A stretch of DNA of 64,000 bases from Paludisphaera rhizosphaerae (GTDB taxonomy: Bacteria > Planctomycetota > Planctomycetia > Isosphaerales > Isosphaeraceae). The position numbers and the translations under genes were made by a program. Below are positions 47,202-63,303 of this stretch, piece by piece (position 1 is the first letter of the stretch; every line of letters begins with the position of its first letter). The stretch lies in the NCBI RefSeq assembly GCF_011065895.1, contig NZ_JAALCR010000009.1, forward strand, positions 248,001-312,000. Reading direction: 5' to 3'. Below the pieces are notes generated by a model. The model did no database searches. It saw only the letters and a program-made list of their open reading frames with translations, and was not told the origin of the DNA.

Positions 47202-48764
47202 TCAACGGATCTCCACGGCGTCGAGGGCCGCGCGGAGGGCGGCGGCGGCGGCGCGAGGGCGGTCGGCCTTGACGACGGCGGCGCTGACGGCGATCCGGCT
47301 CGCGCCGGCTTCCAGCACGCGGTCGACGTTCGTCTCGTCGACGCCGCCGATGGCGAACCAGGGGAGGTTCGTGGCCTCGGAAACGGCTCGGACGTAGGCC
47401 AGGCCGGCCAGTTCGGGCTCGGCGAAGTCCTTCGTCGCGCTGGGGAAGACGGGCCCGACTCCGAGATATCCCGCGCCGGCGAGGACGGCGGCGTCGAGCT
47501 GGGCGCGTTCGTGGGTCGAGACGCCGATGACGAGGTTCGGCCCGACGATCCGGCGGGCGTCGCGGACGGTCACGTCGTCCTGGCCCAGGTGGACGCCGTC
47601 GGCCCCGGCGAGGCGCGCCAGGTCGGGGCGGTCGTTGAGGATGAACCGCGCCTTGGCCTGGGCGGTCATGATGCGGACCTCGCGGGCGCGGCTGAGCAAC
47701 TCGCGGTCGGAGAGGTTTTTCTCGCGGAGCTGGATCACGTCGGCGCCGCCGGCGAGGGCCTCGCCGACGATCCAGGTCAGGTCGCCGAGCGTCGGCAGGC
47801 CGCCGATCAGCACCATCAGGCGGCAGTCGGCCAGCGAGCGATAGGCGTGGACGGCCGTCATCACCAGCTTTTCGAGCGTGTAGACGTCGTAGCGGAGGAC
47901 CTCGAAGCGGCCGGCGAGCCAGACGTCGACGAGCTTGCAGTACTCCTCCAGCGACCGCAGGGCCTCGCCGGTGCGCTTGAAGTTGGCGGCGAGCACGGCG
48001 CGGGGGTTCTCGCGCACCTGCTCGGAGGGGGTCATGATGTGCGTGCCGACGTCTTCGCGGGTGTCGCGGGCGGAGAGGAGGAAGTCGAGGTCGAAGCCCT
48101 TCAAGGCGTCGGCCAGGCGGTGACGGGTCTCCTTGAGCCGGCGGGTCAGCCCGGGGTCGTCCAGGACGAACCGGGCGTAGTCTTCGACGACGCGGAGGCC
48201 TTCTCGGGCGCGATTGCCCGAGGCGTCGATGACCCGGGCCAGGTCGACCGATCGGGTCGAGTCGGAGAGGTCCAGCGGCGGCCCTTCCAGGGGGGGCAGC
48301 GGACTGGCGTCGACCTCCGGGCGGGTGAGCAGTTCGCGGAGGCCCTCCAGGTCGAGGCCGGCGTCGCGGAGGGGCTCCAGCGCGAAGGCCGCCTCGACGA
48401 CCAACCCGGCCAGCAGGTGCTCGGTGCCGACGCTCTCCTTGCGGCCTCCTTCGCGGGCGCGGGAGGTCGCCTCGGAGACGACGGCCCGCATCGCCTGGGA
48501 GCGGAGGGCTTCCTGGGGGATCTCGTCGAGCAGGTCGTAACCGCCTGATTCGGTCTCTTCGAGGGGGACGACGCCGAGGGCTTCGCGCACGCCTCCGGGG
48601 GCCAGGCCGAACTCCTCGATCAGTTCCGAGGCGCGGGATTCGGGCTCGTCGACCAGGGCGGCGACGAGGTCTCCAGGCTCGACCGTTGCGGCCCCTCGCG
48701 AGCGAGCCCGTGACGCGGCTCTGTCCATCGCGCGCCGGGCGCCCGGAGTCAGCGTTTCATCCAT
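47202..48764 (-). CDS. thiE: Clp_N-like / ThiED-type / thiamine-phosphate synthase fusion
   Basis: A 520-residue fusion. Residues 1-150 resemble two Clp N-terminal repeats (TPGARRAMDRAASRARSRG, VGTEHLLAGLVVEAAF). Residues about 165-305 resemble the N-terminal extension of cyanobacterial-type ThiE (VIDASGNRAREGLRVVED, TRHRLADALKGFDLDFLLSA). Residues 315-520 are a full thiamine-phosphate synthase: GADVIQLREKNLSDREL, RFILNDRPDLARLAGADGV, HLGQDDVTVRDARRI, YLGVGPVFPSATKDF and PWFAIGGVDETNVDRVLEAGA. This joins HMP-PP and thiazole phosphate in thiamine synthesis. The first domain is unexpected in this pathway. No TPP riboswitch was seen upstream and no other thi gene is near. Confidence 0.9.
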   Translation of the reverse strand: MDETLTPGARRAMDRAASRARSRGAATVEPGDLVAALVDEPESRASELIEEFGLAPGGVREALGVVPLEETESGGYDLLDEIPQEALRSQAMRAVVSEATSRAREGGRKESVGTEHLLAGLVVEAAFALEPLRDAGLDLEGLRELLTRPEVDASPLPPLEGPPLDLSDSTRSVDLARVIDASGNRAREGLRVVEDYARFVLDDPGLTRRLKETRHRLADALKGFDLDFLLSARDTREDVGTHIMTPSEQVRENPRAVLAANFKRTGEALRSLEEYCKLVDVWLAGRFEVLRYDVYTLEKLVMTAVHAYRSLADCRLMVLIGGLPTLGDLTWIVGEALAGGADVIQLREKNLSDRELLSRAREVRIMTAQAKARFILNDRPDLARLAGADGVHLGQDDVTVRDARRIVGPNLVIGVSTHERAQLDAAVLAGAGYLGVGPVFPSATKDFAEPELAGLAYVRAVSEATNLPWFAIGGVDETNVDRVLEAGASRIAVSAAVVKADRPRAAAAALRAALDAVEIR

Positions 48765-51484: not shown

Positions 51485-53521
51485 TCAGCCCGGCTTGGGA
51501 GGGTCGAGGGCGGGGAGGCCGTCTTCCGGGTCTTCGGGGAGGCTGGGTTTGTCGTAGAGGCGGAGGTAGCGGTAGTAGACCTCCAGCGTGAGGGCGGCGA
51601 AGGTGGTGCAGTAGATCCGGCCGCCGCGGGAGCCGTAGACGCTGTCGTCGGGGTCCCAACTGCCGGCCTGGTGGCCGGACGTGCGTTGGAGCGAGACCAG
51701 GCGGTCGCGCACGCGGTCGTTCCAGCGGGCCCAGGGGCGGCCGCCGTGCTGGTACATGGCGAGGGTCGCGTAATACCAGTAATACACGTTGGTCGAGCCC
51801 TTGTCGGATTCGTGCTTGAGCAGGAACTCGGCCGCCTCCGTGCTGGCCGGGCCGGGGCCGCCCCCGCCCAGGAACTGGCGGCAAACCCAGGCCTCGGCCG
51901 TCATCGTGGGGGTGACGTCCTCCCAGGGTTGGTACTTGGCCAAACCCTTGGCGTCGCCGTCGGCGACGCGCTGGAGCCAGGTCGCCGCTCCTTTCTCCAG
52001 CGACGCCTGATCGGGGATTGGCACCCCGGTCTCCCGGGCCGACTTGAGGGCCATCACGACCCAGCCCAGGATGCTGGTATCGCCCACCGTCGCCCCGGGG
52101 GCGTACCTCCAGGAGAGGCCGTCCTTGGCCCGGGCTTTCGCCAGGAACGCGACGGCTTTCTCGGCCGGTTCGCGGAGGCGAGGGTCGAGCGACAGGGCGT
52201 AGGCCTCGCAGAGGGCCAGCGTGGCCATCGCGTGGCAATACATGCCGACGGTCTTGGCGACGCCCCGCAGGTCGCCGTCGGGCTTCTGCTGGCGGAGGAG
52301 GAACGTCAGGCCCTTGGCGACGGTCGTCGCGTACTTGCCTTCCTTGTGCGTGTAGCCCGCACCCAGGTAGGTGAGCAGGGCGAGGCCGGTCAGGCCGGTG
52401 TCGGCCTCCCAGTAGGCGCACTCGCCGAAGCAGACCTGGCCGGCCGGGCAGTGGACGGTGAAGTCATCGTCCCCATCGACGACCTCGCCGTCGTCGTAGC
52501 GGGCGGTGCCGCCGTCCCAGCGGCCGTCGGCGTCCTGATGGCGGGCAAGCCAGTCCAGGGCCCGCTCCACGGCCTGCTCGCTGGCCGGGCTCGCCCCCGA
52601 TCGCTGGGCGCGGGTCGAGCGGTCGGCGTCGAGGCGGGGGCGGTAGATCTTGGGGACCTCGGTGATCGGCCCGCGAGGCGTGGACGACAGGTCGGCGAGC
52701 GGAGGCGCGGCGGGGGCGGTGGGCGTCGGCCGAGGCGTCGCGACGGCCAGCGGCGGCGGCTCGGGCCTGGAGACCGGCTTCTCCGTCCGCTCAGGAGTCG
52801 GCCGGGTCGTCGGCCGGCCGGATCGCAGCCTCGTATCGCCTGCGAGGGGGACGTTCCCCGGGCGCGGCTCGGCGTCGGGCGTGATGTCGAGCCTGGGGAT
52901 CTCGGGGGCGTTCAGGGTTTTGTCGTCGGTTGCGGCGATGGCTTCCGGGGCCGCGGCGGGGACGGCGGGAACGGAGTCCGGGGGCCTCGGGGCCTCCTCC
53001 GGAGCGGCCGGCTTCGGAAGCTCGGGCGCGGCGGGAGCGGCCGACTCCAGGGCCAATGGAGGAGCCGGTGAAGCTTCTGGCGCCGCCGCATGAGCCTCCA
53101 ACTCAGGACGAGTCGGGTCGAGGCGGCTCGCAGCCAGCGCGACGGGAACCTCCAGGCGGTCCACCGGCGAGGGGACGCGACCGGGCCGACCGTCGGTCGA
53201 GGCGAACGGCTGGACCTCGGTCGTCGGGCCTCCCGGCTCGACGACCGGCGAGACCCGGATCCGGCGGATATGCTCGCCTTCGTCGTCCGCGGAGCGGCTG
53301 GGGTTCAGGGCCCGCATCACGGCCGGAACGCCGCTGCCGCCCAGTAGAAGGGCGGCGTGCGCGGCGATCGAGAGGGCCAGGCAGCGGCGGATCGCCTGGC
53401 GCGATCCCCAACTCACCCAGACGAGGATCGCCAGCGCCAGCAGGCCCACCGCCCCCAGCGCCCACGCGCCGAGATCGGCCCTGAGCAGCAGCAGGAACGA
53501 TTCCAGGTCCAATCCGGTCAT
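51485..53521 (-). CDS. Membrane-anchored alpha/alpha-toroid protein with TonB-like anchor and Pro-rich linker
   Basis: A 678-residue protein. The N-terminus has a membrane segment (about 19-38) and a second (about 47-68) that carries SIAAH, i.e. Ser51-x3-His55, the TonB-type SxxxH signature. A long Pro/Ala/Glu-rich linker (about 75-310) follows. The C-terminal half (320-660) is a prenyltransferase/squalene-oxidase repeat domain: ALDWLARHQDADGRWDGG, TGLTGLALLTYLGAGYTHKEG, MYCHAMATLALCEAYALS, NVYYWYYATLAMYQHGG and FAALTLEVYYRYLRLYD. The DxDD acid motif of hopene cyclases is not seen. It is downstream of the ExbB-like gene (86 bp) and paralogous to the protein at 59516. It may be a binding or sensing domain in the periplasm. 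Confidence 0.88.
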   Translation of the reverse strand: MTGLDLESFLLLLRADLGAWALGAVGLLALAILVWVSWGSRQAIRRCLALSIAAHAALLLGGSGVPAVMRALNPSRSADDEGEHIRRIRVSPVVEPGGPTTEVQPFASTDGRPGRVPSPVDRLEVPVALAASRLDPTRPELEAHAAAPEASPAPPLALESAAPAAPELPKPAAPEEAPRPPDSVPAVPAAAPEAIAATDDKTLNAPEIPRLDITPDAEPRPGNVPLAGDTRLRSGRPTTRPTPERTEKPVSRPEPPPLAVATPRPTPTAPAAPPLADLSSTPRGPITEVPKIYRPRLDADRSTRAQRSGASPASEQAVERALDWLARHQDADGRWDGGTARYDDGEVVDGDDDFTVHCPAGQVCFGECAYWEADTGLTGLALLTYLGAGYTHKEGKYATTVAKGLTFLLRQQKPDGDLRGVAKTVGMYCHAMATLALCEAYALSLDPRLREPAEKAVAFLAKARAKDGLSWRYAPGATVGDTSILGWVVMALKSARETGVPIPDQASLEKGAATWLQRVADGDAKGLAKYQPWEDVTPTMTAEAWVCRQFLGGGGPGPASTEAAEFLLKHESDKGSTNVYYWYYATLAMYQHGGRPWARWNDRVRDRLVSLQRTSGHQAGSWDPDDSVYGSRGGRIYCTTFAALTLEVYYRYLRLYDKPSLPEDPEDGLPALDPPKPG

Positions 53522-53607
53522 CGCGCCCCTCGTCCCCTCGGCCCGTCCGTGCCCCCCCGTTCATCCACATCCCAGCATAGTCGAAACGCCCGGAGACCGC
53601 ACGCGGT

Positions 53608-54540
53608 TCACGCGCCGGCCGAGGAGTCGTCCCTGAGCTTGCGCGGGGCCGATTCCCGCACCGGGATCACCATGATCGGCCGTCGCGGGCTGGAGGCGTC
53701 GCCGATCCGGATGTGCGGCGTCGAGGGATACGAGGGGGCGATCGGCTGCGGCGACGGGGCGGGCGGCGGCGCGACCGTGAGCGTCGGCGCATGGGCCTTC
53801 GTGGTCATGGCGACGGCGTCGATGGTCTCGGCCCCGATCCGGTCGAGCGTCGCGCCCAGGCGTTCGACGCGGGTGGCGAGCAGGTCGTAGAGGACGAGAG
53901 CCGCCACGCCCAGCGCCGCACCGGCGATCAGGGGAGCCAGGGCGTCGGCCGTCGCCGGGCCGGTGACGGGGGCGTCGCCTGAGAAGCGGAGCAAGCGATC
54001 CGCGGCCAGGAGGGCGCCCAGCAGGCCCAGCAGCGGAGCCAGCACAGCGATCCTCCGCAGCGTCCCGACGTTCCGGCGCAGCCGGTCGGACTCCCAGCGG
54101 TGGGCCAGGCCCACGGCGCGTTCCATGTCGACGGCCGGCCGTCCCCAGCGTCGGACGGCCGCCAGGGCCACGCGGGCGGCGGGGCTGGGGTGCATCTCGC
54201 AGTAGTCGAGCGCCTTGCCGCCGTCGAGCTTCCCTTCGTGCAGGCGGTCGAGGAACTTGGAGAGGAAGTCCCTGGGGACGACGGCCCGGCGTCGCAGACG
54301 GAGGAGCCGTTCCAGCGTCACGCAAACGCCCAGGGCCGCGCAGGCCGCGAGGCCGCCCCAGGTCATGCGCTCGGCGGGGGGCGTCCGCTCGTACCAGGCG
54401 AGCGTCTGGGCCCCGGCGCGGGCTGCCAGTCGCTGGGCCTGGGCCGAGAGATCGGCCGCGTTCGGCCCGGCAGCCGTCGCCGACGCCGAGGCGATCACAA
54501 TCGCGGCCGCCGCTGCGGCGATCCGAGTCATCACGATCAT
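53608..54540 (-). CDS. MotA/TolQ/ExbB-family protein with atypical pore residues
   Basis: A 310-residue membrane protein. After an N-terminal signal-like segment it has three helices (about 60-78, 162-184 and 200-221) in the TolQ/ExbB layout, with the long cytoplasmic region between the first and second. Family motifs are VLAPLLGLLGALLAADRLL and ALAPLIAGAALGVAALVLYDLL. At both positions where ExbB has pore-lining Thr (GLLGT and TA.G), this protein has Ala or Gly, so proton conduction is doubtful. No ExbD/TolR gene is in the window. The C-terminus is Pro-rich. The ATG has GGAG 7 bp upstream. It lies between the TPR protein gene and the TonB-anchored toroid gene. Confidence 0.85.
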   Translation of the reverse strand: MIVMTRIAAAAAAIVIASASATAAGPNAADLSAQAQRLAARAGAQTLAWYERTPPAERMTWGGLAACAALGVCVTLERLLRLRRRAVVPRDFLSKFLDRLHEGKLDGGKALDYCEMHPSPAARVALAAVRRWGRPAVDMERAVGLAHRWESDRLRRNVGTLRRIAVLAPLLGLLGALLAADRLLRFSGDAPVTGPATADALAPLIAGAALGVAALVLYDLLATRVERLGATLDRIGAETIDAVAMTTKAHAPTLTVAPPPAPSPQPIAPSYPSTPHIRIGDASSPRRPIMVIPVRESAPRKLRDDSSAGA

Positions 54541-54564
54541 GGACGGGCTCCTTCCCAGAGAACC

Positions 54565-54724
54565 GTCTTCCCCCCTGGAGGGAGAAGACAGACCCCGCAG
54601 GGGTCAGATGAGGGGGAGATCGGCGCGGCGCGGTCGACGATCCGTCGGATGCGAGTCCGACGGCGGTCGTCCCCCTCATCCGGCCCTTCGGGCCACCTTC
54701 CCCCTCCAGGGGGGAAGGCCGTTA
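54565..54724. repeat. REPIN-like inverted-repeat element, CTTCCCCC subtype
   Basis: A 160 bp element with inverted end units (54565-54620 and 54667-54724). The ends are GTCTTCCCCCCTGGAGGG and its counterpart with a GGCCCTTCGGGCC-type second stem. It lies in the 211 bp gap between the TPR protein stop and the ExbB-like gene start, and so splits an otherwise likely operon. Confidence 0.82.
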
Positions 54725-54751
54725 CGATCGCTTCCTTGCGAATCATGGCGG

Positions 54752-57700
54752 CTATTTCTTTCCGGACGGATGTTCGGCCAGGACCTTGTCGCGGCGGGCT
54801 TTCGCCTCGGCGGCGTGGGGGTCGTCGGAGAAATCTTTCGTTAAGCGTTCATACGTCTCGGCGGCTTCGGACCAGCGTCCCATGCGTTCGTAGACCTTGC
54901 CGGCTTCCAGCAGGGCGGCGGCTCGACGCCTTGGGGAGTCGTAATTGATATCGACACGGAGGAACTCCCGGAGCGCCTGGAGGAACTTCTCCTCGTGGAA
55001 GAAGGTTTCGCCGATCATGAGCTGGGCCTGCGCCGCCAGGTCGCCCTGCTGCCGGCGGGCGTCGATCACCGCCTGGAAGGCCGTGCGGGCGTCTTCCGGG
55101 CGGCCCAGGCCGAGCAAGGCACGGCCTCGGGCGAACTCGACGGGGTCACGCTCGGCGGGGACGGTGATCGAGCCCTTGAGCGCGTCGGCCTCGTCGAGCG
55201 CCGGCTGCCAGCGCTTGAGGCCGAGGAGGCACTCGATGCGACGCTCCTTCGCCAGTTTCAGGAGGTCCGGCGGATCGTCGGGGGCCGCTGGGGCGGCGAT
55301 CAGGTCGGCCAGGGTCTTCTCGGCCGTCTCGAACTGGTCCTGTCGTAGTGCGGCCTCGGCGCGGAGGAATTTGGCCTCTCGGATGCGAGGATTGGCCGGG
55401 GTTTCGGCGATCAGGCGGTCGAGCGTCGTCGCGGCCTGGGGCCATTCGGCTCGTTCGATGCGGGTGCGGCCCAGGCGGTAAAGGACGTCGGCGGCGAGCC
55501 GTTCCGGGAGCTTGGGGGCGTCTGGGCCTGTATCGTCGACGAGCGGTGCGAGCAGCTTCTCGACCTCGGCGAAGTCCTTCCGCGCGTTGGCCGATTCCGC
55601 CAGGTTGAACCGGGCGTCGGCCGCGTAGGGGCCGTTCGGGAAGTCGGCGAGCAGGCCGGCGAAAACCTTGTCGGCGTCGTCGAGTTTGCCGTCGTCGACG
55701 AGGTCCCAGCCGCGTTCGGCGAGCAGAGCGTCGATGGGCTGGTTGATCGCCTTGAGGCGGTCGCGGGCGGCGTCGCCGTCGAGGAGTTTGCCCAGCAACA
55801 CGGCGGCCTCGCCGGGCTTGTCCTTCGCCAGCAGCCGAGAACGGGCGAGCGCCGCGAACAGGGCGGCGTCCTGCTTCGGCGCGCGAGTCTCGACCTGCTC
55901 GTAGGCGGCGAGGGCCTCGTCGAGCTTGCCGGACGCCTCGACGGCCCTGGCTTTCTCCAACAGGAGGTCGGCGGTCTTCGTTTCATCGGTCGTCCGGGCG
56001 AGGAGGGCGTCGAACGCCTTCGCGGCCGAGGCGGCGTCCCCCTGTTTGGCCAGGGAGCGAGCGAGGCCCAATTCGGCCCGGTCGTGGATGTTCGGGTCGG
56101 TGGAATCGGCCAGGGTGCGGAATCGCTCGACGGCCTTCGGGAGTTCGCCGGCGTTCACGAACGCCTCGGCCAGCCGGAGTTGGGCGGGGGGCAGTGCGGC
56201 GCTCCTCGGAAAGCGCGTTGCCAGGCGGTCGACGGTCTCGGCGGCGTCATCGCGACGGTTCAGCGCCAACAGGGCGGCGGCGCGATTGGCCAGGGCGTGA
56301 TCGGCGATCGGACCGTCGGGAGCGGCTTCGAGATACTGGGCGAAGGCGGCCTCGGCCTCGGCGAAGCGGCCGGCGTCCAGATGGGAGCGGCCCAGCAGGA
56401 AGGCGGCGTCGGCCCCGGCGCCCTTGCGGGAGGACTTCGCCAACTCGGCCAGCATGGCGTCGGCCTGCTCGGTCTTGCCGACGGCCCGGTAGGCCTGAGC
56501 CAGCTCATATCGGGCGGCGTCGACGACTTCCGGCGAAGGGGCGAGCGGCTTCGCCCCCTGGCCCAGGATCGCCTCCAGCGCCGGGATCGCGTCGGCGGGA
56601 CGGCCGTCGGCGACTGCGGCTTTCGCCTGCACGAGCAGGACGTCCGCGTGCAGCTTGCTCTCGGGGAACTTCACGGCGAAGTCCTGGGCGAGCTTTTCCG
56701 CCCCGGTCTTGTCGCCGGCCTGGAGCGCGAGCCGGGCGGCTTCAAGCCAGGCGTCGTCGGCCCAGGGGCCGGACGGAGCCGTCTCCGCGACCTTCAGGAA
56801 CCGCTCCCGCGCGTCGGGAAGCCGCTTCAAGGCCCGCAAGGCCTCGGCCGAGCGGAAGAGCAAGGCCGGCAGCAGCAGCGACTTCTCGGCCCGGGGGATC
56901 GCGTCGTCGAGCGTCTTCAACGCGGCTTCGGCCTGGTCGCGGCGGAGATCGGTCGAGGCCAGATCCAGGCTCGCTTCCAACGACGTCGCATCGGCCGGGT
57001 CGGCGGCGAGCGGACGCAGCAGGTCGGCCGCCTCGTCGAGCCGGTCGAGCTTGAGCAGCGCCTGAGCGCGGCGAAGCCGGGCCTCGGATCGCAGAGGGCC
57101 CGAACCGCCGACGTCCCCCAGCGCCTTCTCCGCGACCTCGTAACGGCCGGCGGCCAGCTCGATCTTGCCGACCTGAAGTCTCGCCTTGTCGATCCATTCG
57201 GGCGGATTGCGGCGGATCAGATCGTTCAGGACGTCGAGCGCGGCCTGGGTCTCTCCGGTCGCCGCGAGGGCACGCCCCAGGCCGTAGCGGGCGCGATCGG
57301 CGAGCCGTGCGTTGGGGAAACTCTTGAGCGCCTGTTCATAGGCTGAGCGGGCGGCCTTGGGGTCGTCCAGGGCCGACCGCACGTCGCCCAGGTAGGTCCA
57401 GGCGGTTTCCAGATTGGGGTGTGCTTCGGGAGCGTCGGTGAACCGTTCGAGCGCCTCGCGCGCAGCGGGGAGATCCCCCAGCATGTACGAGAGTTCCCCC
57501 AGCCGATACCAGGCCGTTCGCGCCCGGGCATGCTCAGGGGCCCGGCGGAGGAACTCGCGGAAGGCGTCGCGAGCCTCGCGGTAGTGGCCCTGAAGCAGCT
57601 CCGCGCTGGCGAGGCCGAAGCGGGCGTCGTCGCCGTGGGGAGGCTTGGGATCGGTCTCCAGGAACTTGGCGTACTCGTCGGCCGCCAGGTCGTACTTGCG

Positions 57701-57889
57701 CTGGCGAAAGAGTTCGTGCGCGAATCGGAGGGCCCGGGGCATTGGGCTGGGGGCCTCGGCGTCCTGTCCTGTCGCGACGCTCGCCGCGGCCAGCAGCAGG
57801 AGGCCCGCCAGGGCGCGCAAGGGCGCCGGGCCGCGTCGACGACCCGCTCCTCTTCCCTCCCTGTCCCAGCCGAGGCCGATCAATCGCAC
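54752..57889 (-). CDS. Large exported tetratricopeptide-repeat protein
   Basis: A 1045-residue exported protein. A basic N-terminus and hydrophobic core (LRALAGLLLLAAASVATGQ) act as a signal peptide. The rest is almost entirely TPR/Sel1-like helical hairpins with a period of about 34 residues: RKYDLAADEYAKFLETDPK, GHYREARDAFREFLRRAP, GRFAEAEAAFAQYLEAAP and MGRWSEAAETYERLTKDF. The GTG at 57889 touches its own GGGAGG; a TTG at 57883 has better spacing and may be the true start. It is probably a periplasmic scaffold working with the ExbB-like and toroid proteins downstream, as YbgF-like TPR proteins do in Tol systems. That link is inference. Confidence 0.85.
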   Translation of the reverse strand: MRLIGLGWDREGRGAGRRRGPAPLRALAGLLLLAAASVATGQDAEAPSPMPRALRFAHELFRQRKYDLAADEYAKFLETDPKPPHGDDARFGLASAELLQGHYREARDAFREFLRRAPEHARARTAWYRLGELSYMLGDLPAAREALERFTDAPEAHPNLETAWTYLGDVRSALDDPKAARSAYEQALKSFPNARLADRARYGLGRALAATGETQAALDVLNDLIRRNPPEWIDKARLQVGKIELAAGRYEVAEKALGDVGGSGPLRSEARLRRAQALLKLDRLDEAADLLRPLAADPADATSLEASLDLASTDLRRDQAEAALKTLDDAIPRAEKSLLLPALLFRSAEALRALKRLPDARERFLKVAETAPSGPWADDAWLEAARLALQAGDKTGAEKLAQDFAVKFPESKLHADVLLVQAKAAVADGRPADAIPALEAILGQGAKPLAPSPEVVDAARYELAQAYRAVGKTEQADAMLAELAKSSRKGAGADAAFLLGRSHLDAGRFAEAEAAFAQYLEAAPDGPIADHALANRAAALLALNRRDDAAETVDRLATRFPRSAALPPAQLRLAEAFVNAGELPKAVERFRTLADSTDPNIHDRAELGLARSLAKQGDAASAAKAFDALLARTTDETKTADLLLEKARAVEASGKLDEALAAYEQVETRAPKQDAALFAALARSRLLAKDKPGEAAVLLGKLLDGDAARDRLKAINQPIDALLAERGWDLVDDGKLDDADKVFAGLLADFPNGPYAADARFNLAESANARKDFAEVEKLLAPLVDDTGPDAPKLPERLAADVLYRLGRTRIERAEWPQAATTLDRLIAETPANPRIREAKFLRAEAALRQDQFETAEKTLADLIAAPAAPDDPPDLLKLAKERRIECLLGLKRWQPALDEADALKGSITVPAERDPVEFARGRALLGLGRPEDARTAFQAVIDARRQQGDLAAQAQLMIGETFFHEEKFLQALREFLRVDINYDSPRRRAAALLEAGKVYERMGRWSEAAETYERLTKDFSDDPHAAEAKARRDKVLAEHPSGKK

Positions 57890-58421
57890 CTCCCGCTCCG
57901 CGGATCCACACCAACAATCGGCGATCGTCGTCGGATCAACCGTCCTGATCTTCGGTTTTCGCCGTCCGCGACAGACGCCCTCTCCGTCAATCTATCGTCG
58001 GCCGGACGCGCCGCTCAAGCCTCGGAGGCCGCCGTTCGACCGTCGGAATCGCGCAGGAACATCCCTACCACTGGATCGGCATGTTAGACTTCGGACAACA
58101 ACAGCAACTTCGGGACCCGCCCAATCCACGCGCGGCGGACCACTCGCCGATTGCCTAGCTCGCTGAAACGCTATAAGTTGGCGCAGTTGTTGCGGTCAGC
58201 TCAACCTGCGAGGTCGGCTTAGGCGATTGAGTCCAGAAAAACTGTTGGGTGGATCCTGGACTCGGCGTTAAAGTCGGTATAGTCTGCTGGAAATTCGCAA
58301 AACACCCAAAGCTCGCAGTTGGTGAGCTAGTATAGTAGAGCGAACTCTGCCTCCTGTACCGCCTCCGGCGTGTAAGCGAGTCTTCAGCAACTTTTGTTCG
58401 GCCCCCGTGGAGATTGCAACA
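57890..58421. other. Divergent promoter region of TPR and 13-residue-repeat protein genes
   Basis: About 530 bp with no gene. From about 58130 to 58400 it is richer in A+T than its surroundings. It holds two TATAGT hexamers (58278-58283 and 58331-58336) that could act as -10 boxes for the plus-strand gene. No repeat element is seen. Confidence 0.5.
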
Positions 58422-59279
58422 ATGCTTCGCTCTTCGTTGTTCGGCGCGGCCGCGCTAGCCTTCGCGGCTTCTCCGGCCTTCGCTCAGGCTCCGTCCAAGC
58501 AGGCCCCCGTGCCGGTCGCTCCGGCCAAGGTCGCGCCGGTCCCCGTCGCTCCGACCAAGGTCGCGCCGGTCGCTCAGGCTCCTGTGGCCCCGACCAAGGT
58601 CGCGCCGGTCGCCCAGGCTCCTGTCGCTCCGACGAAGGTCGTCCCGGTCGCGCAGGCTCCTGTGGCTCCGACGAAGGTCGTCCCGGTCGCCCAGGCTCCT
58701 GTGGCTCCGACGAAGGTCGTCCCGGTCGCCCAGGCCCCTGTGGCCCCGACCAAGGTCGCGCCGGTCGCCCAGGTCCCTGCCGCTCCGGCCAAGGTTGAGC
58801 CGACTCCGGTTGCTCCGACGAAGGTCGTGCCGGTCGCCCAGGCCCCGGTTGCTCCGACGAAGGTTGTGCCGGTCGCCCAGGCTCCTGTGGCTCCGACGAA
58901 GGTCGTCCCGGTCGCCCAGGCTCCTGTGGCTCCGACGAAGGTCGTCCCGGTCGCCCAGGCTCCTGTGGCCCCGACCAAGGTTGTTCCAGTCGCCCAGGCC
59001 CCGGTCGCCCCTGCCAAGGTCGCCCCGGTTGCTCAGGCTCCTGTGGCTCCTGCCAAGGTCGCGCCGGTTGCTCAGGCTCCTGTGGCTCCTGCCAAGGTCG
59101 CCCCGGTCGCTCAGATCCCGGCCACGCCTGCCAAGGTCGTCCCGGTCGCTCCGGCTGCCCCGGCTCCTGCCGCTCCGGCTGACGAGCCGCCGCCGGCCCC
59201 CGCCCCGGCTCCTGCCGCTCCGTCGATCCCGGCGGCTCCGACGATCCCGGCCGTCCCGCCGGTCCCGACCGCCAAGTGA
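58422..59279 (+). CDS. Secreted Pro/Ala/Val protein built of 13-residue repeats
   Basis: A 285-residue exported protein (signal peptide 1-21, SSLFGAAALAFAASPAFA). Residues 48-239 are 14 near-perfect copies of the 13-residue unit [AV]PVAQAPVAP[TA]KV, broken once by a short 10-residue variant (EPTPVAPTKV). The C-terminus is Pro/Ala-rich with no further domain. Each unit has one Lys, so the chain is evenly spaced in positive charge and should be extended (polyproline-like). It could be a periplasmic spacer, a wall- or polymer-binding strap, or a surface polymer. The ATG has GGAG 9 bp upstream. A terminator follows. No family is recognised. Confidence 0.88.
   Translation: MLRSSLFGAAALAFAASPAFAQAPSKQAPVPVAPAKVAPVPVAPTKVAPVAQAPVAPTKVAPVAQAPVAPTKVVPVAQAPVAPTKVVPVAQAPVAPTKVVPVAQAPVAPTKVAPVAQVPAAPAKVEPTPVAPTKVVPVAQAPVAPTKVVPVAQAPVAPTKVVPVAQAPVAPTKVVPVAQAPVAPTKVVPVAQAPVAPAKVAPVAQAPVAPAKVAPVAQAPVAPAKVAPVAQIPATPAKVVPVAPAAPAPAAPADEPPPAPAPAPAAPSIPAAPTIPAVPPVPTAK
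58563..59138 (+). repeat. 39-bp coding tandem repeat
   Basis: Fourteen 39-bp units (one 30-bp variant among them) encode the 13-residue repeat. Neighbouring copies such as those at about 58620-58730 and 58880-58970 are almost identical at DNA level, so copy number probably varies between strains. Confidence 0.88.
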
Positions 59280-59312
59280 GTCTGGGTCGAGTCGAGACGC
59301 GAAAATCACCGA

Positions 59313-59346
59313 AGTCCCCGGCCGTTGCTGGTCGGGGACTTTTTTT
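59313..59346 (+). terminator. Rho-independent terminator
   Basis: AGTCCCCGGCC (59313-59323) and GGTCGGGGACT (59330-59340) form an 11-bp stem with a 6-base loop, followed by a run of six further T. It lies 33 bp after the stop of the repeat protein gene. Confidence 0.92.
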
Positions 59347-59515
59347 GCGCGCACGAACGAAGGAAATCGGCGATTCTCAAGACGGGGCCGCGCGAGGCGT
59401 CGCCTGAGTATAGGCAGGAAACGCGCTCGGCGCCTGGCGGATTCGCCCGGCGTGCCCCTAGAATGGACGAGCAACCCGGGACGGTGACGCCACCTCGATC
59501 CAACCGAGTCCCCCC

Positions 59516-61123
59516 ATGAGGCTCCGCGATCTACCGCAGCGAGTCGTCGACCGCGTAAACCGTTCCAGCGCGGCCTGGGAGGGGCGGGACATCAACCCCC
59601 ACACCCTTCGCTCCGTGCCTTCGTGGGGCGTCAGCCTGTTGTTGCATGCCTTGTTCCTGCTGTTGATGGCGCTCCTGATCCGTCATGGCGCTGGAGACAT
59701 CCACGATCGCTCGTTCAGCGGCGAGATTTCCCCCCCCGGCGACCTTGGCGACGTCACGTCGCTCGTCGATGCCGATCGTTCGGGAGATCCGTTTACGAAC
59801 CTGGATTCGCCCAACCCGCCCTCGATGGGCTTCGGCCAGCCTGACCCCGAGTTGAAGCTCACGAACCAGCCGGAGATCGCCGGCCTGTCGATGTTCGCCG
59901 GCGACGCGGCGGGCCCGACGCCCAAGCTGAACGCCACCCCCTCGCTGATGGGGACGGCCCCGATGCCGGGACTCTCCGTGAACATCCAGGCCCCCTTCTC
60001 CGGCCGCAGCGGCATCGCCCGCGCGGAGTTGGTTCGTCGCGAGGGGGGGACGGTTCATTCCGAGAAGGCCGTCGAGGACGGCCTGGCCTGGATCGTCCGC
60101 CATCAGAAGGCGGACGGGTCGTGGGTGCTGAACGTCAATGAGGTCTGCCAGACCTGCTCGCCCAATGCGTCGATCCTTTCTCAAACCGGGGCGACCGGCC
60201 TGGCCCTGCTCCCCTTGCTGGGCGCCGGCTACAGCCACACCGTCAAGAGCCGGCATCAGGCCGCGGTGCGACGGGGGCTGGAATGGCTCGTCGCGCATCA
60301 GCAGGAGAACGGCGACTTCTACGTCGGCGGTACGCCCATCGGCTGGCTCTACAGCCACGCGATCGCGTCGATGGCTCTCTGCGAGGCCTACGGCCTTTCG
60401 CGCGACCCCCAGCTCAAGGAGCCCGCGCGTCGCGCTGTAGCGTTCATCGTGGAGTGCCAGGATCCCCAGACCGGCGGATGGCGATATCGCCCTGGTCAGG
60501 CCGGCGACACCTCGGTCTTCGGCTGGCACATCTTCGCTCTCCGGAGCGCGAATCTCGCCGGATTGACGGTTCCCAAGCAGACGATTCGCGGCTGCACCGA
60601 CTACCTGAACCTCGCCTCCACGGACGGCAAGAAGATCCTCTACGCCTACCAGCCCGATCGACCGGCGACGCCGGTGATGACCGCCGAGGCGCTCGTCGGC
60701 CGGCAGATCCTGGGGTGGCCCCGGGAGCATCCCTCGCTGGTCAAGGGGGCCGGCCGGGTCGCCGCCGACCTGGAGACGAACGAGGATCGGAACATCTATT
60801 ACTGGTATTACGCCACCCAGCTCCTGCACAACATGCGGAACAAGGACTGGGAGCGCTGGAACCCCCACGTCCGCGAAGCCCTGATCCGCAGCCAGATCCA
60901 CGCCGACGGCTGCCCCAACGGCAGTTGGGACCCCCAGTTCCCCAGCCCCGACCGCTGGGGCGTCGGCGCCGGCCGGCTCTTCCAGACCTCCCTCTCGATC
61001 CTGACCCTGGAAGTCTACTACCGCTACCTCCCCCTCTACCGCACGTCCGACGAAGACGGCATGGAAGGCATCACCCCGCCGCTGACGCCGAACGCCACGC
61101 CCAATCCGGTGAAGCAGCCGTGA
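59516..61123 (+). CDS. Membrane-anchored alpha/alpha-toroid protein with TonB-like SxxxH anchor
   Basis: A 535-residue paralogue of the protein at 51485. One N-terminal membrane helix (about 36-56, SWGVSLLLHALFLLLMALLI) carries Ser40-x3-His44, the SxxxH signature of TonB anchors. A linker to about residue 180 follows, shorter than in the paralogue. The toroid domain (about 185-510) has ALWIVRHQ-type repeats: GLAWIVRHQKADGSWVLN, TGATGLALLPLLGAGYSHTV, GLEWLVAHQQENGDFYVGG, NIYYWYYATQLLHNM and SILTLEVYYRYLPLYR. No DxDD cyclase motif is present. There is a Pro-rich tail. It is not adjacent to the ExbB-like gene but lies in the same 10 kb cluster. Confidence 0.88.
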   Translation: MRLRDLPQRVVDRVNRSSAAWEGRDINPHTLRSVPSWGVSLLLHALFLLLMALLIRHGAGDIHDRSFSGEISPPGDLGDVTSLVDADRSGDPFTNLDSPNPPSMGFGQPDPELKLTNQPEIAGLSMFAGDAAGPTPKLNATPSLMGTAPMPGLSVNIQAPFSGRSGIARAELVRREGGTVHSEKAVEDGLAWIVRHQKADGSWVLNVNEVCQTCSPNASILSQTGATGLALLPLLGAGYSHTVKSRHQAAVRRGLEWLVAHQQENGDFYVGGTPIGWLYSHAIASMALCEAYGLSRDPQLKEPARRAVAFIVECQDPQTGGWRYRPGQAGDTSVFGWHIFALRSANLAGLTVPKQTIRGCTDYLNLASTDGKKILYAYQPDRPATPVMTAEALVGRQILGWPREHPSLVKGAGRVAADLETNEDRNIYYWYYATQLLHNMRNKDWERWNPHVREALIRSQIHADGCPNGSWDPQFPSPDRWGVGAGRLFQTSLSILTLEVYYRYLPLYRTSDEDGMEGITPPLTPNATPNPVKQP

Positions 61124-61162
61124 ATTGAAGCTGAAGGCGATCGAGGAGTGCAGGTTACGCCC

Positions 61163-61759
61163 ATGTCTCAGCTACGGCGACCACTCAGTAACCTCTTGAC
61201 GAGCCTCATGATAGCGATGATGTTCATCGCCTTCCTCCTTGCATTAGCCGACCAGATGAGTTCGGCCGAACTTACGGAGTCGGCCTTGAGGAAGGAGGCG
61301 TGGAACTTTCGGCCGAAGGATATCACCCTGGAATTCATGGTCCAAGTTCTGGGCGACCGTGGGATCGACGTCCTCAAGCAGGCGACGGACGTCGAGTTGC
61401 TGCGAGTAACCAGGGGTTCAGAGGAGGACAAGGTGGTGCCGACCGGCGTCATGCTGGGTGAAGCCGTTGCCTTGAGGACTGCCTCCCTGCTCATGGATCA
61501 CAGGAACTACCTGGGCGCGCACCACCATCCCGTTCTGGACGACGCCTCGCTCCGCTTGGTCGGCTTGCGGTTCCGCAACGGTTCCTCAATCCTTGACGTC
61601 GTCACAGAGGTGGGAGGTGTGTGGTTCAGATTCGCCCTCCACGATCAGGCCGGAAGGAAGGTGCAATCGTCTGGTGGGCTTCAGTTGATGACCGACCCTG
61701 AATTAGTAGAGCTGTCCATGTGGCTTTCCCGCCAGGGATACACCGTCCGGGATGGCTGA
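61163..61759 (+). CDS. Unknown membrane-anchored protein, tandem paralogue 1
   Basis: A 198-residue protein, first of three paralogues in a row. The N-terminal membrane helix (LLTSLMIAMMFIAFLLALA) is followed by a periplasmic or cytoplasmic domain of about 165 residues. Conserved blocks shared by all three are LGDRGIDVLKQATDVELLRV, VPTGVMLGEAVALRTASLLM, DHRNY, LVGLRFRNG and a late DPEL. The ATG at 61163 was chosen by alignment with the starts of the other two; a GTG at 61148 is possible. I do not recognise the family, and no catalytic motif stands out. Confidence 0.78.
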   Translation: MSQLRRPLSNLLTSLMIAMMFIAFLLALADQMSSAELTESALRKEAWNFRPKDITLEFMVQVLGDRGIDVLKQATDVELLRVTRGSEEDKVVPTGVMLGEAVALRTASLLMDHRNYLGAHHHPVLDDASLRLVGLRFRNGSSILDVVTEVGGVWFRFALHDQAGRKVQSSGGLQLMTDPELVELSMWLSRQGYTVRDG

Positions 61760-61794
61760 TCATTCGAAAGTTGTCCATCGGTTGCGATAGTTCG

Positions 61795-61852
61795 TTCGAC
61801 CCCCTGGAGGAAAGACAGGCCGCGAAGAGGTCAGATTAGCGGGACGACCGCC
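61795..61852. repeat. Degenerate REP half-unit
   Basis: GACCCCCTGGAGGAAAGACAGG...AGGTCAGATTAGCGGGACGACCG resembles the forward unit at 54565 but with several changes. It is probably an old relic between the first two tandem paralogues. Confidence 0.5.
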
Positions 61853-62057
61853 GAATCGATTTCAGTTGCCGGTTCTCAGTCGTCAGAGCGGATCGTGGGG
61901 TGCCGTGGTTGAGAACTGGAAACTGCCAACCCACAACACCTGAGCGGCCGCCCTTACCTCTGATGATGGATGAAATTATGATGGTATTTTTGTGATTCAC
62001 ATATGAAACTATGTATGAACATCAGTCAAGTCGGAGGGCGATCGAGAGGCAGCGTTC

Positions 62058-62660
62058 ATGTCCCAGCCCCGCGTAAGATTGACGAGCCTCATGATCGCTA
62101 TGGTGTTCATCGCCTTCAGTCTGGCGCTGTTTAACCAGGTCAGATCGGCCGCGTTTCGAGAGGCGGCCTTGGAGCAGCAGTTGAGGGAGAGTCGGTCGGG
62201 AGCCTTCACCCTGGAAGTTATGCACCTCTTATTGAGCGACCGAGGGATCGAAATCCTCAAGCAGGCGTCAGATGTCGAGGTGCTTCGGGTCTCATGGCTC
62301 CCAGATGAATACGACGTCGAGGTGGCACCGACTGGAGTCATGCTGGGCGAAGCCATGGCTGCCAAGGTCGCTTGTGCGCTGATGGACCACAGGAACTACA
62401 GGCCCGGACACCGGGAGCCATTCATGGACTCGTCGCCACCGCCACCGCCGCTGGTCGGGTTGCGTTTCCGAAGGGGGGGGATCCTCGACGTCCTCGTCGA
62501 ACCAGGATTCTCTGAGACTGCCTTGGGGGAGGTCCGGTTCAAGATTTATGATCAGGAGGGAAAGATAGTGCATTCATACGAATCGCCAATTGACATATGC
62601 AATCCTGAATTGCAACGGGTAATCAAGCGGCTGTCCCGTCAGAAAAACCCGGGTAAATAA
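62058..62660 (+). CDS. Unknown membrane-anchored protein, tandem paralogue 2
   Basis: A 200-residue paralogue of the genes on either side. The anchor helix is RLTSLMIAMVFIAFSLALF. Shared blocks are LLSDRGIEILKQASDVEVLR, APTGVMLGEAMAAK, LMDHRNYRPGH, LVGLRFRRGG and NPELQRVIKRLSR. A run of five prolines (PPPPP) before LVGLRF is specific to this copy. The ATG lies after GAGAGGCAG, a context repeated before the third copy. The 300 bp before it have no gene. Function unknown; the anchored domain may face the periplasm. Confidence 0.78.
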   Translation: MSQPRVRLTSLMIAMVFIAFSLALFNQVRSAAFREAALEQQLRESRSGAFTLEVMHLLLSDRGIEILKQASDVEVLRVSWLPDEYDVEVAPTGVMLGEAMAAKVACALMDHRNYRPGHREPFMDSSPPPPPLVGLRFRRGGILDVLVEPGFSETALGEVRFKIYDQEGKIVHSYESPIDICNPELQRVIKRLSRQKNPGK

Positions 62661-62730
62661 GTGCGTCTCGCGCGCTATCGGGCCAACAGCGGCCTGCTAT
62701 GAGGCCCTTGCCGGTCGAGAGGCAACTTCC

Positions 62731-63303
62731 ATGTTCTGGCCCCGCATCAGTCCGAGAAGCTTCATGATCGGTCTGGCGTTCATTGCTTGCGCCCTGACGC
62801 TTCTCGGCGTGAACAGGCTGGCCGAGAGCCGGGAACGGGATTTGAGGATGCAGGTGGCCGAGTCCAGGTCGAGAAAACTTGCCCTGGAGGGGATGACCAG
62901 CCTCCTAAGCGACCGTGGGATCGACATCCTTATGCAGGCACCGGACGCCGAGTTGCTCAAGGTTTGTCAAGGCAGGTCGGAAGACGGTACCGCTCTCAAC
63001 CTGGTCACGCCGACCGGCGTCATGCTGGGCGAGGCCGTCTCGCGGAGGATGACCTGCGTGCTGCTGGATTACCGCAACTACCGGTCAATAAACGCCGATG
63101 ACCTGCCCGAGCCTGGATTCGGCCTGCGCCTCCGTAGCGGCTTCGGGACGGTCGACGTCCTCATGGACGCAAGCGAAGGATCTTCGCATCAGAATGTTTG
63201 GATAAACCGAACTCGGGATGGAGAGTTGATGCATGCGTCCGGTTGGAGATGCATGAACGACCCCGAGCTGCAAAAGCTGGTTGAGTCGATCCTCAGTCGG
63301 TGA
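62731..63303 (+). CDS. Unknown membrane-anchored protein, tandem paralogue 3
   Basis: A 190-residue paralogue, the shortest of the three. The anchor is SFMIGLAFIACALTLLGV. Shared blocks are LLSDRGIDILMQAPDAELLKV, VTPTGVMLGEAVSRRMTCVL, DYRNY and NDPELQKLVESILSR; the middle LVGLRFR block has become FGLRLRSG. The ATG follows GAGAGGCAACTTCC. Its stop overlaps the start of the next gene by 4 bp (GTGA), which suggests translational coupling with that unknown protein. Confidence 0.78.
   Translation: MFWPRISPRSFMIGLAFIACALTLLGVNRLAESRERDLRMQVAESRSRKLALEGMTSLLSDRGIDILMQAPDAELLKVCQGRSEDGTALNLVTPTGVMLGEAVSRRMTCVLLDYRNYRSINADDLPEPGFGLRLRSGFGTVDVLMDASEGSSHQNVWINRTRDGELMHASGWRCMNDPELQKLVESILSR

Follow-up and report, generated by a model that had tools for sequence, protein, structure and literature searches.

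Two proteins with a TonB-like anchor and a terminal toroid

The window analysed in this study, a 64,000-nucleotide stretch of Paludisphaera rhizosphaerae (Isosphaeraceae) that corresponds to positions 248001-312000 of contig C9 in an 8.05 Mb genome, encodes two proteins, T1 and T2, in which an N-terminal membrane anchor with an SxxxH motif is joined to a C-terminal alpha/alpha toroid. Our analysis suggested that T1 and T2 are probably motor-coupled transducers of the TonB/TolA type, in which the toroid replaces the C-terminal domain of TonB or TolA and which, in Isosphaeraceae, are driven in trans by an ExbB-ExbD pair. T1 is the last gene of a minus-strand set (TPR gene, ExbB-like gene, T1), and T2 starts 1.6 kb past the start of the TPR gene on the opposite strand. 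An earlier note on this DNA had proposed an energised or force-bearing envelope complex with the toroid in place of the TonB C-terminal domain. The transducer part of that proposal was favoured by the tests described below, whereas local energisation was not, since the locus has no ExbD and its ExbB-like protein has lost residues that other ExbB proteins conserve.

The open reading frames (ORFs), lengths and strands were as the earlier note gave them, and the Pro-rich linker of T1, the adjoining ExbB/TolQ-like gene and the 1045-residue TPR gene were also confirmed. Two N-terminal hydrophobic segments were found in T1, the second of which holds S51/H55, and one was found in T2, which holds S40/H44; the placement of both motifs inside N-terminal membrane helices was thus borne out. 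T1 and T2 were paralogous, as had been claimed (42% over T2 residues 221-529). Because the loop between the two T1 helices is positively charged, the charge pattern suggests that helix 1 enters the membrane from outside and helix 2 runs towards the periplasm. This predicted orientation agrees with the PD40 (TolB-type) propeller that stands N-terminal to the same two helices in the toroid proteins L223:5746-9993 and L267:5035-8571 (both plus strand) and, by eye, in L249.

Conservation of the SxxxH motif

Conservation of the Ser and His in homologues had been set beforehand as a refutation test, and the outcome was favourable. In the first set of loci, 85 of the 88 toroid ORFs retained SxxxH, comprising 29/29 T1, 26/26 T2-type (25 from Isosphaeraceae and one from another family) and 30/33 others. 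The three exceptions were L141, which has AxxxH, L144, which is truncated by its contig, and L163, whose N-terminus is lipoprotein-like. As a separate observation, the L163 protein (L163:5210-7606, plus strand) appeared by eye to carry Ig-like repeats together with the lipoprotein-like N-terminus in place of the SxxxH anchor. A second set came from a scan of named genomes, and it leans to T1-like toroids because only the best 80 of 578 were kept; it also overlaps the first set, with L208/L123, L211/L121 and L282/L174 being the same contigs. Among these best 80, SxxxH was present in 70 of the 74 toroid ORFs with an intact N-terminus (69 by eye, as the script match in L275 was spurious and its helix has AxxxH); eight ORFs cut by the contig start were left out of this count.

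A chance control was run by one rule for toroid ORFs and other genes alike, with a 19-residue hydropathy of at least 1.3 within the first 250 residues and SxxxH inside the segment. By this rule, SxxxH was found in 86/88 toroid ORFs versus 16/356 other genes of the same stretches. At a stricter hydropathy of 1.6, it was found in 73 of the 84 toroid ORFs having such a segment versus 9/247 other genes. The toroid proteins are homologues, and the conservation counts are not independent of one another. This shared descent is one point for a view in which SxxxH marks a plain membrane anchor, kept for the packing of its own helix and with no link to ExbB; the same view draws on eight solo toroid ORFs without motor genes, seven of which have SxxxH, and on the 19 stretches in which T2 has no motor genes. 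However, the T1-type and T2-type anchors differ in helix number and in their flanks, and by eye they are alike in little beyond the Ser and His, yet both have these two residues, and each type is part of ExbB-ExbD operons in certain families. We therefore consider the plain anchor very unlikely.

The earlier note had named SxxxH as the signature by which TonB engages ExbB. The Ser and His of the fuller SHLS motif were indeed present, but its Leu (+11) and second Ser (+15) were not kept in T1, with the spacing taken from the TonB sequence quoted in the excerpt of PMC12215075 used here. In T1, position +11 was Gly in 27/29 and Ser in 2/29, and position +15 was Pro in 22/29; in T2, position +11 was Leu in 19/26 and position +15 was Ile or Val in 17/26. 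The Ser and His of the toroid anchors lie early in the helix, within its first half, and the same excerpt describes Ser16 and His20 of E. coli TonB as contacting ExbB Ser34 and Trp38 near the cytoplasm.

A simple strand pattern (motor box) was scored in the first window past the helix and in the other linker windows. The pattern was found in 8/29 versus 7/181 windows for T1, 6/13 versus 4/78 for L137-L150 and 38/70 versus 70/553 for the named set (best 80 of 578), while other toroids gave 1/18 versus 2/99 and T2 gave 0/26 versus 2/21. These results of a weak test suggested that a strand-like pattern is enriched just past the helix in T1-type proteins and is not universal.

Gene neighbourhoods outside Isosphaeraceae

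The second refutation test, co-occurrence of toroid genes with ExbB-like genes, was also favourable, and ExbD and TPR genes co-occurred as well. Once L142 and L144 had been set aside from the 14 T1-like loci L137-L150, ExbD lay directly upstream of the toroid gene in 12/12, and seven had ExbB in the stretch. In family f3 (L151-L156), all six loci had the order ExbB-ExbD-ExbD, a gap and then a single-helix toroid gene; the gap gene of the one locus examined (L151, 364 aa) had no Pfam match at an E-value of 0.1. In family f2, ExbB is encoded apart from an ExbD-toroid pair, and 5/6 fetched stretches had a TPR gene next to this ExbB. Complete TPR-ExbB-ExbD-toroid sets were found in L157-L160 and in L127, the last being a further set in an Isosphaeraceae genome (G022). 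ExbB without a toroid was found in L162.

Among the named loci (best 80 of 578), 24 had TPR, ExbB, ExbD and toroid, 12 had ExbB, ExbD and toroid, 20 had ExbD and toroid, three had TPR, ExbB and toroid without ExbD, and 21 had the toroid only. The three without ExbD (L208, L210 and L211) carried the Isosphaeraceae-type ExbB. In the same selection, ExbB-ExbD-toroid sets with or without TPR were also found in Phycisphaerales, Kiritimatiellae (L264) and Sumerlaeia (L260). With NCBIfam models, two cassette ExbB proteins matched TolQ best and two cassette ExbD proteins matched TolR best (all under the cut-offs), and one cassette TPR protein was assigned to YbgF (267.5 bits, cut-off 90.1). Since TolQ, TolR and YbgF were the best models, we refer to these sets as Tol-like.

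In a FastTree phylogeny rooted on family f3, all 34 Isosphaeraceae T1 rows grouped together, within a larger clade of 93 rows made up mostly of motor-linked toroids. The simplest history would be an ancestral TPR-ExbB-ExbD-toroid set, from which ExbD was lost in Isosphaeraceae and whose ExbB there drifted or was redesigned.

The Isosphaeraceae set and its altered ExbB

The ExbB-like protein of the window, P0002, passed the Pfam MotA_ExbB model (33.3 bits, cut-off 22.9). A profile of P0002 and its relatives matched TolQ at 4.4e-22, and the P0002 structure model matched ExbB/TolQ chains. We call this family-specific form ExbBw. In a quick-search tree (L207, a fused ORF, was left out), ExbBw formed one clade with a support of 100, found in Isosphaeraceae only. 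The stem of this clade measured 1.64 changes per column, and it branched within 69 rows of cassette ExbB proteins that grouped together with a support of 95.

To place the E. coli ExbB pore threonines Thr148 and Thr181 and its Pro190, an alignment of 103 rows was used, comprising 72 other ExbB and 31 ExbBw (two identical pairs among the latter); a serine of transmembrane helix 1 (TM1) was equated with Ser34. The Thr181 equivalent in TM3 was Thr in 72/72 other ExbB and 0/31 ExbBw (Leu204 in P0002), and the Thr148 equivalent was Thr in 72/72 and 13/31, respectively, with Ser in 14 ExbBw and Ala176 in P0002. The Pro190 equivalent in TM3 was Pro in 62/72 versus 0/31, and the TM1 serine was present in 69/72 versus 1/31. 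In the excerpt of PMC12215075, Trp38 of E. coli ExbB contacts Pro190. With no ExbD and with the TM3 threonine, the TM3 proline and the TM1 serine lost, an energised state is not inferable from the ExbBw gene. The candidate explanation that the local ExbB energises T1 was rejected on these grounds, and a locally energised complex in the window's family is unlikely.

Per-genome tallies of T1, ExbBw and the ExbB3 kind described below were hand counts among the matches listed. T1 was found in at least 33/37 Isosphaeraceae genomes and ExbBw in at least 28/37. All 28 genomes with ExbBw had T1, and none of the four genomes without T1 had ExbBw among the matches listed; these four were 74 to 89% complete. 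T1 and ExbBw shared one fetched stretch in 21 of the 28 genomes, with the TPR gene also in 20 of these 21. In the remaining seven, T1 and ExbBw were on different contigs or far apart, and in five of them ExbBw adjoined a TPR gene. A search of the 29 T1 stretches with 13 ExbD queries at an E-value of 0.01 found no ExbD.

The source genome had seven matches each to ExbD and to MotA_ExbB. All the ExbD matches lay close to four of the MotA_ExbB matches, at distances of up to about 1.5 kb; the other three MotA_ExbB matches were ExbBw and two on contig C7. One of the ExbB-ExbD pairs, ExbB3-ExbD1, has intact threonines and is encoded at 229.6-230.8 kb of contig C9. From a reading of the lower rows among the matches listed, an ExbB3-kind match was present in at least 32 of the 33 genomes having T1, and ExbD adjoined the ExbB3-kind gene in 6/6 fetched stretches (the tree holds seven ExbB3 rows).

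Proposed mechanism and alternatives

In the mechanism that we propose, a typical set outside Isosphaeraceae would encode a secreted TPR protein, a TolQ/ExbB-type pentamer, a TolR/ExbD-type dimer and, last, a T1-kind toroid transducer. Proton flow through ExbB-ExbD would be transmitted to the SxxxH-bearing helix and from there, via the Pro-rich linker, to the toroid, whose target would be a periplasmic or outer-membrane partner. The Isosphaeraceae set would have lost ExbD, and its ExbB would have lost proton-path residues as well as residues of the network that reads the helix. In T1 and T2, the SxxxH helices would then most likely engage the intact ExbB3-ExbD1 pair, and the local ExbBw would be a remnant or a scaffold. 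The persistence of SxxxH, although ExbBw lost the reading residues, and also where ExbBw is gone, is consistent with such a trans motor.

Several observations weigh against the transducer reading. Eight solo ORFs (L142 and L163-L167) and the 21 toroid-only loci among the best 80 of 578 had a toroid without any motor gene, some of these stretches being cut by contig ends. In Isosphaeraceae of genera other than that of the window, 19/19 T2 stretches yielded no ExbB or ExbD. ExbBw was not found, among the matches listed, in five T1 genomes (G011, G019, G026, G029 and G033), all fragmented assemblies. In L118 (G011) and L124 (G019), the TPR gene and T1 abut with no ExbB between them and SxxxH is still present; a contig-edge fragment elsewhere in G019 weakly matches P0002. 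T1 has neither the Leu nor the second Ser of SHLS, and the local ExbB has neither an ExbD partner nor, save for the TM1 serine in 1/31, the equivalents of Thr181, Pro190 and Ser34. Furthermore, the Trp38 place is mostly Val or Leu in the ExbB groups counted, and the Pro190 equivalent was found in 0/7 of ExbB3, the proposed trans motor.

Passive scaffolding is the main rival of the trans motor, which we regard as the most likely arrangement for T1 and T2. In this alternative, the Isosphaeraceae T1-ExbBw-TPR set is no longer energised, no trans motor is at work, and the ExbBw pentamer serves as a scaffold for a static toroid tether. The alternative accounts for the missing ExbD in 29/29 T1 stretches, the loss of Thr181, Pro190 and Ser34, the long ExbBw stem within the cassette clade, and the operons of L118 and L124, which have kept TPR and toroid but lost ExbB. 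However, a static tether would not need SxxxH, which was kept in 29/29 T1 and 25/25 Isosphaeraceae T2, and ExbBw still persists in at least 28/37 genomes. The ExbB3-kind matches in the T1 genomes, with ExbD adjoining, also argue against it. We consider this scaffold rather unlikely. A related possibility, which we put forward tentatively, is a planctomycete Tol-like system with a ligand-binding toroid on a proton-driven transducer, whose motor lost ExbD and its proton path in Isosphaeraceae and was kept as a passive ring holding the TonB-like helix.

It was also considered that helix 1 of T1 might stand in for ExbD inside the ExbB pore. An acidic residue at the start of this helix was found in 27/27 placeable Isosphaeraceae T1 (of 29), in contrast to 1/11 in the ExbD-bearing L137-L150, and the excerpt of PMC12204202 used here proposes such a replacement for a vWA family without TolR. 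However, by charge the N-terminus of helix 1 is outside, which would put the acid at the periplasmic end, and the TM3 threonine that should meet the acid is gone. In the vWA case in print, by contrast, the ring of threonines is intact. Such a substitution is most improbable. A pairing of the T1 helix-1 acid with an Arg at ExbBw position 182 (24/27) was dropped, as no clean covariation was seen by eye.

Fold and invariant residues of the toroid

T1 residues 300-678 were modelled together with 67 aligned relatives, and the model had a predicted local distance difference test (pLDDT) score of 93.0. Using Foldseek and VIA-align, the best match in the PDB was squalene-hopene cyclase 2sqc, with a Z of 27.0, a root-mean-square deviation of 3.8, 309 aligned residues and 20% identity. 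The next matches were other class II terpene cyclases, 2-epimerases, glycosidases and others of the same fold; a family absent from these lists was not counted as excluded. The C-terminal alpha/alpha toroid claimed for both proteins was thus borne out, for T1 by the model and the 2sqc match and for T2 through its alignment to T1. The earlier note had further described both toroids as lacking the cyclase DxDD motif. Taken literally this did not hold, as the letters occur twice in T1 (DGDDDF and DPDDSV), but a conserved DxDD was indeed absent: the letters were found in 10/68 aligned toroids, at no fixed place. T1 scored 25.8 bits against TIGR01507, far below the cut-off of 431.1, and 26.8 bits against Pfam SQHop_cyclase_C, barely over the cut-off of 26.1. 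A likeness between GDTS of the toroid (D481) and DDTA of the cyclases was seen by eye only. The toroid therefore has the cyclase fold but no cyclase membership, as DxDD is not at a fixed place, and cyclase activity by the DxDD route was rejected.

Across the 68 toroid rows, 23 columns were invariant, which in T1 numbering are Q329, G333, W335, T378, Y428, E439, W471, Y473, D481, W487, Y530, Y580, Y583, Y584, W597, Q612, G620, S621, W622, G634, L646, E647 and R651. A ligand pocket in the toroid is likely. These columns bear on a further alternative, in which the toroid is an envelope enzyme or a domain that binds an isoprenoid or sugar ligand, the anchor localises it, the motor regulates or moves it, and force is beside the point. 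So many invariant columns, among them D481, Y428, E439, Y580, Y583, Y584, W622, E647 and R651, seem too many for a ring that only binds proteins, and the fold is common to cyclases, 2-epimerases, GH76 and others. However, the missing conserved DxDD and the score far under the curated cyclase cut-off speak against it, and the SxxxH motif and the linkage to ExbB-ExbD are left unexplained. We consider this alternative unlikely.

Comparison with known systems

Like TonB-ExbB-ExbD and TolA-TolQ-TolR, the toroid proteins combine an SxxxH anchor, a linker and a terminal domain. They differ in that the terminal domain is unrelated to TonB_C or TolA and that T1 departs from SHLS. The toroids of relatives are encoded with ExbB/TolQ and ExbD/TolR, whereas the window locus has the ExbB-like gene only, without ExbD and without the pore residues. 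The Tol-Pal system is resembled in that cassette ExbB and ExbD are closest to TolQ and TolR, the TPR protein is closest to YbgF, and a PD40 propeller is fused in two relatives. As in YbgF/CpoB, the TPR proteins have repeats that score over the YbgF cut-off and a signal peptide by eye; in contrast, they are about 1000-1180 aa long with many repeats, so their YbgF scores are inflated. Squalene-hopene cyclase and other class II terpene cyclases share the alpha/alpha toroid, whereas the toroid here is a domain of about 360 residues on a membrane anchor.

The nearest published kind is the vWA force transducer (Williams-Jones et al. 2025, PMC12204202). According to the excerpt of that paper, these proteins have a TonB-like helix with conserved Ser and His, a disordered linker and a foreign globular domain, and their genes in PVC (Planctomycetes-Verrucomicrobia-Chlamydiae) bacteria often lie beside TPR, tolQ-like and two tolR-like genes. 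The toroid proteins share this anchor logic and the TPR-tolQ-tolR neighbours. They differ in the C-terminal domain, which is of vWA fold there and a toroid here, and in gene number, as T1-type cassettes have one ExbD gene, whereas family f3 has two. The main text of PMC12204202 contains none of the words toroid, squalene and cyclase. No toroid-ended transducer was found in the open-access papers searched, a scope outside which most subscription papers and bioRxiv preprints fall. The suggestion that the arrangement may be undescribed would apply to the toroid form, as a foreign domain on a TonB-like anchor beside TolQ/TolR and TPR genes is already in print for vWA.

PF03544 (TonB_C) was found in 0/37 Isosphaeraceae and 5/59 genomes overall, with no further TonB or TolA domain model used, and PF07715 (Plug, TonB receptor) was found in 0/37 and 8/59, respectively; OmpA-type domains were found in 53/59 genomes. 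By these two models, the ExbB-ExbD pairs of Isosphaeraceae have no recognised TonB. Thus 54/59 genomes had no TonB_C and 51/59 no Plug, yet the examined planctomycetes carry ExbB-ExbD pairs, and the toroid proteins are a concrete candidate for what some of these motors drive. If the transducer reading is right, the list of terminal domains carried by TonB-like anchors would become longer, and Isosphaeraceae would be a natural case of a 5:2-type motor minus its proton path, with a transducer that keeps the grip motif.

Feature coordinates and neighbouring genes

Table 1. Features of the T1-T2 locus (positions are those of the window).
Feature	Position	Strand	Evidence or remark
T1 (P0001, 678 aa)	51485..53521	-	SxxxH-bearing anchor of two helices, Pro-rich linker, toroid at the C-terminus
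T1 alpha/alpha toroid, about residues 300-660	51542..52624	-	Model pLDDT 93.0; squalene-hopene cyclase Z 27.0
T1 Pro/Ala-rich linker, about residues 75-295	52637..53299	-	Short strand-like stretch (HIRRIRV) soon after the helix
Second membrane helix of T1, holding S51/H55 (residues 45-66 or so)	53324..53389	-	SxxxH in 29/29 Isosphaeraceae T1
ExbB/TolQ-like P0002 (310 aa), family-specific form ExbBw, without conserved pore residues	53608..54540	-	Pfam, profile, model, alignment
Codon of L204, place of E. coli ExbB Thr181	53929..53931	-	Thr in 19/19 other ExbB rows, 0/27 ExbBw
TPR protein P0003 (1045 aa), encoded first in the set, signal peptide by eye	54752..57889	-	YbgF model 254 bits, cut-off 90.1
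T2 (P0004, 535 aa)	59516..61123	+	Single-helix anchor with SxxxH, toroid
Membrane helix of T2, holding S40/H44 (residues 36-56 or so)	59621..59683	+	Sequence
T2 toroid, about residues 165-515	60008..61060	+	From alignment to T1

Pfam matches to Pec_lyase and Lysostaphin_N were set aside as partial or compositional. Directly upstream of T2, an ORF at 58407-59279 (plus strand) encodes a Pro/Ala/Val/Lys repeat with a 39-base unit in about 16 copies and, by eye, a signal peptide; similar repeat ORFs were found beside T2 in 4/4 same-genus stretches holding T2 (L108, L109, L111 and L112). Past T2, three consecutive genes encode small membrane proteins that look alike (203, 200 and 190 aa; 61148-63303, plus strand) and had no Pfam match at an E-value of 0.01. 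Elsewhere in the window, a single gene of 520 aa at 47202-48764 (minus strand) fuses Clp_N, ThiD2 and thiamine monophosphate synthase domains.

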